DNA from: Parvularculaceae bacterium
Lineage (GTDB): Bacteria > Pseudomonadota > Alphaproteobacteria > Caulobacterales > Parvularculaceae
Direction of reading: 5' to 3'
Assembly: GCA_021776435.1 (NCBI GenBank)
Contig: JAJFFW010000119.1
Coordinates: 1-40,492, forward strand
DNA: 40,492 nucleotides
Positions 31,222-34,431 of this stretch are shown one piece after another. The position numbers were made by a program, and so were the translations under genes. The notes under the pieces are model-generated. The model saw only the letters and a list, made by a program, of their open reading frames with translations, searched no databases and was not told where the DNA came from. Position 1 is the stretch's first letter. Every line of letters starts with the position of its first letter.

Positions 31222-32529
31222 TTATCGTTGAAAATCGTAAAAGGCGCCCATGCCGAGAAGATCGGTGAGCGCCTGCATTGCCGCAAAGCTCTCATCCATA
31301 AAGCTTGGATCGCGCAGATCGTCCGGGATGACACGGTCACGATAATGCGCATTCACCCAGGATTCGAGTTTTGAAATCTTCTCGTCATTGAGAAGGAAGT
31401 TCTGGTTGGCGGCAATCGCTTCTTCATTTGAAAGCACAACGCGCAATCGCAGACAGGCGGGTCCGCCGCCATTGCGCATGCTTTCGCGCACATTTTTGAA
31501 CACCAGCCGGTTGATCGGATTGTTTTGAGCAACGGTATCTTCGAGGAATGCTTGTACACGCGGATTATCTTCCGACTCTTTTGGCAAGATCAGCGCCATT
31601 TCCCCGCCTGGTAGTGTCACGAGCTGTGAATTGAAGAGATAGGATTTCACCGCATCCTCAAGTGTAACCTTGCTAGTGGGCGCTTCGACAATCTCGACAA
31701 ACGACGCAGCGGCGCGAATAGCCTCATAGGCCGCTTTTGGGTCTGCAAAGCTTTGTTCGTGCAGGAATAATACCGTTCCGTTCGCAACGCCGACGACGTC
31801 ATTATGAAAAGCGCCGGCGTCAAGCGCCGCCTTCGATTGCTGAATGAAGACCGTTTTATCCGGATTGAGCAGATGATTGCGTGCAACCGCTTGGCTAGCG
31901 CATTTTTTCTGACGTGCGGGAAACTTATCACCATCCTCGCCATAAACGAAAAGATGGACACCCAGTTTCCCGTGACCTTCCGCAAGACGGCCATGATTGG
32001 CCGCCCCTTCATCGCCAAAATGCATCGCCCCCGGCAATGGCGGGTGATGGGTAAAATGTTGATCGCTATCGAAAATATGCTTGAGCACCCGCGCGGTTGT
32101 ATCCGCCTCTATGGAGCGATGAAAATTTGCCGCCAAATTGGCCGGTGTGAAATGCACCTTACCGTCGGCTGTATCCGGCGACGGCGCCACCGTGCCCGCA
32201 TTCGCCGTCCACATGGTTGAGGCCGCGTAGCAATTCGCGAGGAGTTGCGGTGCAGTCTTGGCCGCTTTTTCGATGATCTGCTTGTCAGCCCCGGAAAACC
32301 CAAGCGCGCGCAATGTTTTTAAATGTGGCCGGTCCTGCGGCGGCAGGAAGCCCTGCCCCAAGCCGAGCTCCATCGCGGCGCGCATTTTGGCGAGCCCCTG
32401 CAGCGCCGCCGCGCGCGGGTTCGACGCGGCGCCCTTATTGGTCGCCGATGCGAGATTGCCGAAGCTAAGCCCCGCATAATTATGGGTCGGACCGATTAAG
32501 CCGTCGAAATTGAATTCCGTGTGGGTCAT
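31222..32529 (-). CDS. astB: N-succinylarginine dihydrolase, 435 aa
   Basis: The second step of the arginine succinyltransferase (AST) pathway: N2-succinylarginine to succinylornithine, two NH3 and CO2. FNFDGLIGPTHNYAGLSFGN at the N-terminus, LPGAMHFGDEGAANHGRL, GAFHNDVVGVANG and NGGGPACLRLRVVLS match E. coli AstB, with the catalytic Cys at residue 359. Length is normal. GAGGAG lies 4-5 bases before the ATG. Between it and the rest of the ast operon lie a palindromic repeat and a decayed astB 5' end. Confidence 0.95.
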   Translation of the reverse strand: MTHTEFNFDGLIGPTHNYAGLSFGNLASATNKGAASNPRAAALQGLAKMRAAMELGLGQGFLPPQDRPHLKTLRALGFSGADKQIIEKAAKTAPQLLANCYAASTMWTANAGTVAPSPDTADGKVHFTPANLAANFHRSIEADTTARVLKHIFDSDQHFTHHPPLPGAMHFGDEGAANHGRLAEGHGKLGVHLFVYGEDGDKFPARQKKCASQAVARNHLLNPDKTVFIQQSKAALDAGAFHNDVVGVANGTVLFLHEQSFADPKAAYEAIRAAASFVEIVEAPTSKVTLEDAVKSYLFNSQLVTLPGGEMALILPKESEDNPRVQAFLEDTVAQNNPINRLVFKNVRESMRNGGGPACLRLRVVLSNEEAIAANQNFLLNDEKISKLESWVNAHYRDRVIPDDLRDPSFMDESFAAMQALTDLLGMGAFYDFQR

Positions 32530-32544
32530 GCGTCTCCTCTTTCT

Positions 32545-32664
32545 TCCTTCTCCCCATCGGGGAGATGGTGGCCCGAAGGCCCGGATGAGGGGGAAGAAGC
32601 GCCGGTCATTATTCTCACCGCCTCTTCCCCCTCATCCTAACCCTCTCCCCAAAGGGGAGAGGGA
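32545..32664. repeat. Palindromic repeat (PHPNPLPKGERE type) in ast operon
   Basis: A perfect 15-bp inverted repeat (32583-32597 and 32623-32637, GGATGAGGGGGAAGA and its complement) is flanked by two short hairpins, CTCCCC-ATC-GGGGAG (32550-32564) and TCTCCCC-AAA-GGGGAGA (32644-32660). Read as protein it gives PPHPNPLPKGERE, a familiar spurious peptide of dispersed repeats. It separates intact astB from its decayed copy. Confidence 0.8.
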
Positions 32665-32693
32665 ATTATCCCGCCCATGCCGCAGCGACTGCA

Positions 32694-32744
32694 TTTATGC
32701 GTCAAACCAATCAGGCCGTCGAAATTGTATTCCGTGTAGGTCAT
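32694..32744 (-). pseudogene. Decayed duplicate of the astB 5' end
   Basis: Starting from ATG 32744 the minus strand reads MTYTEYNFDGLIGLTHK, against MTHTEFNFDGLIGPTHN of intact astB 215 bases away. The 17 codons agree at 42 of 51 bases, and several differences are synonymous. Similarity stops there and the frame ends in the repeat. The ATG overlaps the stop of the small membrane protein gene as ATGA, the layout of a real operon junction, so this may be the original astB start. Confidence 0.75.
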
Positions 32745-32968
32745 TTGCTTTTAAATTTTGCAAGCAACGATTGAAAAACCATCGCCAGGCTAGCGAGCAC
32801 CGCTGGCACACCAAGAATAAGGATTAGGAAAATTCCAATCCGTTCCCAAATGTTTTGCAGCGCCTGGCGAGGCGATTCGATTTCGTTATCTCCGATGATC
32901 TGAAAGGCAGACACTAAAAGCAATGCTAAAAGAAACACCGCGTAAAGTAGAAAAAATCTTTTTAGCAT
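32741..32968 (-). CDS. Small two-helix membrane protein in the ast operon, 75 aa
   Basis: I do not recognise this protein. It starts MLKRFFLLYAVFLLALLLVS, a membrane helix after two positive residues, continues with a polar loop (DNEIESPRQALQNIWERI), and has a second helix IGIFLILILGVPAVLASLAM before a basic tail AKFKSK. The ATG at 32968 overlaps the last seven bases of astD, and the stop overlaps the ATG of the astB remnant. Both overlaps argue for a translated gene of the operon rather than chance. A longer frame to 33043 would overlap astD much more and is less likely. The role is unknown; an inner-membrane location is inferred. Confidence 0.65.
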   Translation of the reverse strand: MLKRFFLLYAVFLLALLLVSAFQIIGDNEIESPRQALQNIWERIGIFLILILGVPAVLASLAMVFQSLLAKFKSK

Positions 32969-34431
32969 ACCGAAATACCCACCTGCCTTTCCGGCATTGC
33001 GAGCAGCGCTTCCCCCTCCATCGACGCCACAGGATAGGCGCAATAGTCAGCCGCATAATAAGCGCTTGGGCGATGGTTGCCGGAATGGCCGATGCCGCCA
33101 AAGGGCGCCGCGCCCGACGCGCCAGTTGTCTGACGGTTCCAGTTGACGATGCCAGCTTGAGAGCGCAGGCGGAACTTCTCCCATTTCGATTTATCATCTG
33201 ACAAGAGCCCGGCTGACAGGCCAAAGCTAGTGGCGTTCGCACGCGTAATCGCGGCGTCAAAGTCTTTCACCCGCCAGACCTTCAAAAACGGCCCGAAATG
33301 TTCTTCATCAGAGACGTGTTCGGCCCGCGTAACATCGAGAATGCCTGGCGTCACGAAGGCCTTGTCTTCTTCGCGCAGACTCAAATTGCGGATCGGCTCG
33401 CCGCCCTGCTCAGTCATGCGGTCAAAAGCGCGCTCCAGTCCCGCAGCAATCTGGGGCGAAATCACCGGTCCCATAAAGGGTTGCGGATCGGCAAATGGCT
33501 GATCGATAATCAGCCGGTCAGTAAGCTTTGTCAGGGCATCAAGGGCTTTGTCGCCAGCGGCGCCTTCAGGCAGGATCAACCTGCGCGCGCACGTGCAGCG
33601 TTGGCCGGACGTCAAAAACGCTGACTGCACGACAGCGAACGCCGCTGCATTCACATCATCCGTATCCCACCAAATCAGTGGATTATTACCGCCAAGTTCA
33701 AGTGCAAGGATAACATCAAGGCGATCGGCAAACATCTTGTTGATAGCAAGCCCCGTGCGATAGCCGCCGGTGAACAGAATGCCGTTGACGCCGTCGGCCC
33801 CGGTCAGCGCTTCACCGGTCTCGCGCCCACCCTGCACCAGATTAACGACGCCCGCGGGCAGGCCCGCTTCCAACATACGCTCCACCATAAACGCACCTGG
33901 CGAGGGGGTCTGTTCCGACGGTTTAAAGACAATTGTATTGCCCGCGATCAGCGCCGGAACCATGTGCCCATTGGCCAGGTGAACCGGGAAATTATAGGGG
34001 CCGAGAACCGCCATAACGCCATGCGGCCTATGTCGTAAAATGCCACGGGTTGCGCCGCTTGCCGTTTCTTTCTCGCCGGTGCGCTCGTGATAGGCGCGTA
34101 TTGAAATATCAACTTTGCCCGCAACCGCTGCTGCTTCTGTTTTTGCTTCCCAAAAGGGTTTGCCGTTTTCGCGCGAAATCAGCCTCGCCAGTTCCTCTGC
34201 GTCGCGTTTAATGATGTCACGATAACGCTCCATCACCGCTATACGATCAGTAAGCGGTGTCAGGGCCCATTTTTCAAAAGCCCCATGCGCCGCCTTAACT
34301 GCGTCATCAACGTCATCGCGTGTTGCACTGGCGCCCTTCCAGATTTCCGCACCCGTCGATGGGTCGAAACTTGAAAACGCCGTACCAGCGCCGTCTCGCC
34401 ATGCGCCATTGATCAGAATTTTATTTGTCAT
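32962..34431 (-). CDS. astD: Succinylglutamate semialdehyde dehydrogenase, 489 aa
   Basis: An NAD-dependent aldehyde dehydrogenase, fourth step of the AST pathway. The catalytic Cys is in SGQRCTCARRLI, the general base Glu in ALELGGNNPLIW, and the cofactor segment is GPYNFPVHLANGHMVPALIAGN. FKPSEQTPSPG and PFGGIGHSGNHRPSAYYAADY are typical of AstD. I chose ATG 34431 (MTNKILINGAWRDG), which lies four bases after the astA stop; the longer frame runs back into astA. Length agrees with E. coli AstD (492). Confidence 0.94.
   Translation of the reverse strand: MTNKILINGAWRDGAGTAFSSFDPSTGAEIWKGASATRDDVDDAVKAAHGAFEKWALTPLTDRIAVMERYRDIIKRDAEELARLISRENGKPFWEAKTEAAAVAGKVDISIRAYHERTGEKETASGATRGILRHRPHGVMAVLGPYNFPVHLANGHMVPALIAGNTIVFKPSEQTPSPGAFMVERMLEAGLPAGVVNLVQGGRETGEALTGADGVNGILFTGGYRTGLAINKMFADRLDVILALELGGNNPLIWWDTDDVNAAAFAVVQSAFLTSGQRCTCARRLILPEGAAGDKALDALTKLTDRLIIDQPFADPQPFMGPVISPQIAAGLERAFDRMTEQGGEPIRNLSLREEDKAFVTPGILDVTRAEHVSDEEHFGPFLKVWRVKDFDAAITRANATSFGLSAGLLSDDKSKWEKFRLRSQAGIVNWNRQTTGASGAAPFGGIGHSGNHRPSAYYAADYCAYPVASMEGEALLAMPERQVGISVC

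Follow-up and report, generated by a model that had tools for sequence, protein, structure and literature searches.

Remnant of an astB start ahead of a palindromic element in a Parvularculaceae genome, and duplicated gene ends of the same architecture at other loci

In fungal mitochondria, mobile endonuclease ORFs (mORFs) are known with duplicated gene termini in Allomyces atp6 and in Glomus atp6, atp9, cox2 and nad3, where the native terminus is displaced and a foreign terminus is in use, with few changes in the protein (PMC3630166; this and the other sources are cited from excerpts). In T4-like phages, some nuclease genes overlap the stop codon of the upstream gene, e.g. mobE with UAAUGA, and insertions displaced transcription starts, promoters for downstream genes being found inside the nuclease gene (PMC2988022). 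Concerning the GIY-YIG nucleases, a 2006 survey reports, in the excerpt consulted, no homing enzymes of this family in Alphaproteobacteria, and asks whether other GIY-YIG members are molecular parasites (PMC1564403). The Caulobacter protein VsrA, a DUF559 member, is required for the SOS response in a strain without a methyltransferase (PMC12907096). In a literature search over titles and the first parts of abstracts, no bacterial precedent was recognised for palindrome-flanked nuclease genes with gene-end duplication.

The window, that is, the whole stretch of 40,492 nucleotides analysed here from a Parvularculaceae bacterium (genome G000; L numbers denote loci), contains an astD-astB junction with the following features:

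32962..34431, minus strand: astD, succinylglutamate-semialdehyde dehydrogenase (NCBIfam TIGR03240 above cut-off; the start ATG at 34431 is a chosen one)
32741..32968, minus strand: small membrane-protein ORF of 75 aa, its ATG just within the astD end and its TGA overlapping the remnant ATG
32694..32744, minus strand: astB start remnant of 17 codons, 42/51 identical to intact astB (50-nt direct repeat)
32540..32668, minus strand: palindromic element separating the remnant from intact astB, without a nuclease gene in this copy
32534..32539, minus strand: GAGGAG, a ribosome-binding-like site on the junction's element side, 4 bases ahead of the astB ATG
31222..32529, minus strand: intact astB, 435 aa (TIGR03241 and PF04996 above cut-off)

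The remnant (32744-32694) and the start of intact astB (32529-32479), both on the minus strand, were aligned without gaps. The runner-up place for the astB start on either strand of the window reached only 27/51, and when the 1000 bases preceding astB were shuffled 500 times with dinucleotides preserved, the top score was 29/51. The earlier note had claimed that a second, diverged astB start exists here, and this held, the similarity exceeding the shuffled background; chance similarity is refuted and its probability is negligible. A direct-repeat search recovered the same pair, at 84% over the 50 nt. The identity begins at the ATG, each of the three tens of bases upstream agreeing at only 2 to 4 positions, and drops after codon 17; the match can be extended to codon 21 with a two-base gap, a weak extension with hand-chosen end points (P 0.023). 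Read as a mini-ORF of 35 codons, the remnant ends at a TAG whose last base is 32637. The ATGA overlap of the remnant with the stop of the membrane ORF, the palindromic repeat separating both copies and a ribosome site proper to intact astB are present, as had been described. The last 73 residues of the membrane ORF gave no Pfam match above cut-off.

We then considered the history put forward at the outset, in which the original astB disappeared while a second, diverged one survived, or the operon was split by a duplication. It is suggested by the presence of two starts with ATGA at the upstream one. However, a search with the whole protein gave a single match in the window genome, no second whole astB being found, and only the palindrome and its edges, read by eye, lie between the two starts. 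The loss of a whole original astB is thus not supported: only the astB start is displaced, and "original astB lost" is too large a claim. As the same pattern occurs at unrelated genes, which argues for an element-linked process, we regard this history as very improbable. The nearest AstB records to the window protein are those of Marinicaulis and others, and the only genome with two AstB matches, G027, carries two parts on separate contigs.

The junction was compared in relatives, searched in 61 genomes with none other from the window organism's own genus. The sample consists of 33 loci with astD adjoining astB, i.e. the window and 32 relatives, six loci being left uncounted. A gap of at most 30 bases separates the two genes at 12/33 loci, and in 8 of those 12 it is a four-base overlap. 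The reading of ATGA as a native operon join is therefore right in that such overlaps are common in relatives, but there they join astD to astB and not the membrane gene to astB. A relative with the membrane gene joined directly to astB, as had been anticipated, was not seen by eye across the junction loci, of which only L065 was compared. This locus carries the sole homologue of the membrane ORF seen by eye (39% over 64 residues), which continues into a different palindrome ahead of astB.

Inserts that differ among loci occupy 21 of the 33 junctions. By pattern, a palindrome was found in 10 (the pattern overlooks L076, where one is visible by eye), a nuclease gene in 4, 3 of which also enter the palindrome count, and another insert in 10, comprising by eye small ORFs, a nucleotidyltransferase/HEPN-like pair and antisense genes. 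The antisense genes within the junction at L059 and L070 are glyoxalase-like by eye. Because the inserts differ among relatives, we consider the junction an insertion site. It resembles in this the minimal mobile elements of Neisseria, a conserved pair, here astD/astB, holding varying small cassettes across species; unlike what the excerpt describes for them, gene-end duplications and palindromes mark some of the inserts here (PMC3898611). An astB-start remnant beyond shuffles was present in 2 of the 22 gaps tested (at least 100 bases), namely those of the window and L072.

At L072 (OFTM115), 1724 bases separate astD from astB and contain two astB-start remnants. The order is remnant, palindrome, GIY-YIG gene, palindrome, remnant, palindrome, DUF559 gene, palindrome and intact astB. 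The closest pair of copies is identical at 54 of 56 bases, and both remnants end, by reading, at the same astB codon 21.

The architecture of remnant, element and intact gene is found at genes other than astB. In the window genome, 20 element places were tested (a 21st was dropped for its too short flank), and at two of them, L150 and L146, direct repeats flanking the element exceeded those of 50 shuffles. The L150 locus presents the remnant of a carbonic-anhydrase-like start, then a palindrome, then the intact gene, while at L146 a ParE-like gene separates one copy of the purQ 3' end (a name given by eye) from a second copy. This ParE-like toxin gene is itself broken by a palindrome between the purQ 3' ends (positions 1200-1900, contig C79).

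In the same way, the ruvB start is duplicated at two loci. At L180, a remnant overlapping the ruvA stop (GTGA) precedes a DUF559 gene and intact ruvB, the duplicate being identical at 22/22 bases. At L236, the order is older ruvB remnant, palindrome, start copy, DUF559 gene and intact ruvB, and the newest start copy shows no difference over 75 coding bases. In the ruvB scan, scores of 36 are artefacts of the overlap of query and target (18 bases), the valid places being L337 (that of L180) and L340 (that of L236). Duplicated 3' ends are found at L232, where a carboxyltransferase-like end stands in three copies with a DUF559 and then a GIY-YIG gene between them, and at L195, where the end of a TonB-receptor-like gene is repeated over 109 bp at 95%. 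A nuclease ORF lies beside the duplicated terminus at L072, L180, L236, L232 and L195, and is absent at the window. Two candidates were rejected: L397 as a gene end with synonymous changes, as no long ORF ends there, and L157 (29 bp), left out as unproven.

As the duplicates flank the insert, a plain insertion could have produced them if its target-site duplication was of unusual length (~20 to 110 bp) and the displaced copy decayed afterwards, and the identical or nearly identical copies of L236, L195 and L180 are those expected from such an event. The length of the duplication, however, is not fixed but varies widely (22 bp at L180, 56 bp at L072 and 109 bp at L195). Moreover, duplication in place followed by decay predicts differences that are random over codons. 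In eight remnant/in-use pairs pooled, one of them (L236) identical and L146 and L180 standing outside the test, we counted 26.7 synonymous differences for 12.5 expected, the highest of 2000 simulations reaching 22. With the L072 break base removed, the count was 24.7 for 11.8 expected (highest simulation 21). When each locus contributed a single pair, the count was 19.7 for 9.9 (highest 18.5), and when L232 copy 3 replaced copy 2 it was 16.2 for 9.2, a value reached by 1/2000 simulations. A synonymous excess is also seen singly at L072, L232 copy 2, L150 and the window (P 0.001 to 0.039). At L072, 6/6 and 3/3 differences are synonymous, or 5/5 and 2/2 without the break base. No excess was observed at L195, which is near expectation (P 0.34), nor at L232 copy 3, with 0/3 synonymous. 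Since the pooled and single-locus excess over free decay, together with the L150 remnant and the older one of L236 described below, speaks against it, we hold a long target-site duplication to be unlikely.

The L150 remnant matches the gene of its own genome at 45/66 bases, whereas matches with genes in other genera reach 55; its own in-use copy was the nearest in 0.000 of 2000 bootstraps. The older L236 remnant shares 32/39 bases with L345, from a genome of the same genus, against 28/39 with its own in-use start, and was nearest to its own copy in 0.024 of bootstraps. As each of these remnants stands closer to the gene of another species than to that of its own genome, the comparison indicates that remnant and in-use start are from different lineages at L150, and probably so at L236. 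The corresponding bootstrap values are 0.179 for the window and 0.359 for L232. In the window, the two copies share 42/51 bases with each other, against 44 and 45/51 with their nearest orthologues of other species. Different lineages are likely here only by analogy with L150 and L236. At the nine differing sites, the family majority is matched by the remnant at 5 and by intact astB at 4; a native remnant with a foreign start in use is the direction supported at L236 only. The earlier proposal that a second, diverged copy survived is thus acceptable for a replaced gene start, while the window bootstrap leaves its origin unsettled.

The synonymous divergence would also be explained, without homing, by an ordinary insertion and duplication after which the in-use gene was independently replaced through homologous recombination with another species. 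In Neisseria, cassettes are indeed exchanged by homologous recombination in the flanking genes, according to the excerpted source (PMC3898611). Nevertheless, this scenario requires two events at each locus, and we judge it distinctly improbable.

The elements themselves were characterised. The window palindrome has nested arms (32544-32569 / 32640-32665 and 32583-32601 / 32619-32637) and, as RNA, a fold of −88.9 kcal/mol (z −8.5). Its family is repeated in the window genome, where a search gave 28 match rows, some of them overlapping and one being the query's own. Matches of the palindrome in Rfam were discarded as chance, being below the gathering scores and naming microRNA precursors. As short repeated palindromes in many copies, the elements are comparable to the REP/BIME palindromes, which RAYT (Y1) transposases mobilise; they differ from what the excerpt reports on REP/RAYT in lying within gene ends and flanking nuclease genes, and in that no Y1 transposase accompanies them in G000 (PMC3733652). 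Indeed, a search for Y1 transposase (PF01797) gave 0 matches in this genome, which is 98.6% complete, while 5/14 control genomes were positive. The RAYT route is therefore disfavoured.

The association of palindromes and nucleases was quantified in 121 GIY-YIG/DUF559 genes obtained from searches of 41 genomes and in 33 further genes forming a second sample; neither set includes UvrC-like matches, and some fragments were also omitted. Repeat families were present on both sides of the nuclease gene in 57/121 and 20/33 cases, compared with 2/160 control places, which were drawn from L059-L138 and include other phyla. At most nuclease loci no gene-end duplication was detected: 5 nuclease genes at 4 loci (L195, L232, L180 and L236, curated by inspection and not blind) were accepted among 154 genes, with 0 in the second sample of 33. 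An automatic count of ORF termini gave 13/154 nuclease places against 2/250 controls and was set aside, most of the 13 being palindrome-family repeats with spurious ORFs; it lists L195 and L232 and omits L180 and L236.

The account that we favour, and regard as on balance probable, is that gene ends are the insertion sites of palindrome/nuclease elements and that a replacement terminus, probably of another lineage, takes over there, with cleavage and transfer inferred. The window remnant would then be the displaced former, or an earlier, astB start, still in its place in the operon. The astB 5' end would have received a palindromic element like those flanking GIY-YIG/DUF559 genes elsewhere, and astB would now start past it, the replacement start comprising about 17 to 21 codons and the ribosome site lying on the element side. 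Such an arrangement could arise if a nuclease made a break in the gene end and the gene-body side were repaired from a donor copy carrying the element and its own start. The other broken end would join the element, giving the order native start, element, donor start and gene body. Nuclease action is plausible because VsrA, a DUF559 protein, is needed for the Caulobacter SOS response. In the window, the nuclease gene may have been lost or never present, and palindromes may move alone.

Several findings count against this account. The window element is without a nuclease gene. The L072 remnants, associated with two nuclease families, end at the same codon, while separate site specificities predict otherwise. 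The 75 identical bases of the newest L236 copy match a plain duplication. Remnants are limited to the two astD-astB gaps and duplications to few nuclease loci. Finally, L232 copy 3 and L195 lack the synonymous excess, and the bootstraps are indecisive for the window and L232.

Like mORFs, the loci combine a nuclease gene at a gene end, a displaced old terminus and a replacement in use, with copies that differ much in DNA and little in protein. Unlike the mORFs of the excerpted report, they are found in a bacterial chromosome, at 5' as well as 3' ends, with REP-like flanking palindromes and with GIY-YIG and DUF559 nucleases (PMC3630166). They resemble the free-standing homing endonucleases of T4-like phages in having nuclease genes between host genes, and differ from intronless homing as presented in the excerpted review, which describes no gene-end scar and in which "duplicat-" is absent (PMC2988022). 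The loci would thus work like mORFs; we claim a likeness and not membership, with cleavage and donor inferred. A more tentative proposal, to which we give somewhat less than an even chance, is that of a bacterial mORF counterpart. Here, small GIY-YIG/DUF559 genes between REP-like palindromes would spread in Parvularculaceae. They would break conserved genes of operons within their first or last codons and bring in a substitute terminus, complete with start codon and ribosome site if these are required. The host gene would thus survive, with the old terminus left as a scar, and solo palindromes like that of the window would be nuclease-less forms.

If so, this would explain how tightly packed operons, even at ruvB, can take up selfish nuclease genes and palindromes without the gene being killed, and the scar left in the sequence would make the insertion events countable. 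The first and last codons of conserved genes may then differ in ancestry from the remainder. The loci would also bear on the question raised in 2006 of GIY-YIG molecular parasites (PMC1564403, excerpt).

Additional observations concern the ruvA-ruvB junction and the breakpoints. A DUF559 gene stands at this junction in genomes of three genera (G000, G001 and G013). In the window genome, the junction (L238 1410-2240, contig C6) holds palindromes and DUF559, and no ruvB remnant was seen there. At L236, a DUF1508 ORF (2443-2793) separates ruvA from the oldest ruvB remnant, and its stop overlaps the remnant ATG, like that of the window membrane ORF. By reading, breakpoints recur at astB codon 21, twice at L072 (1721 and 2294), and at about codon 13 of ruvB in two genera (L180 and L236).
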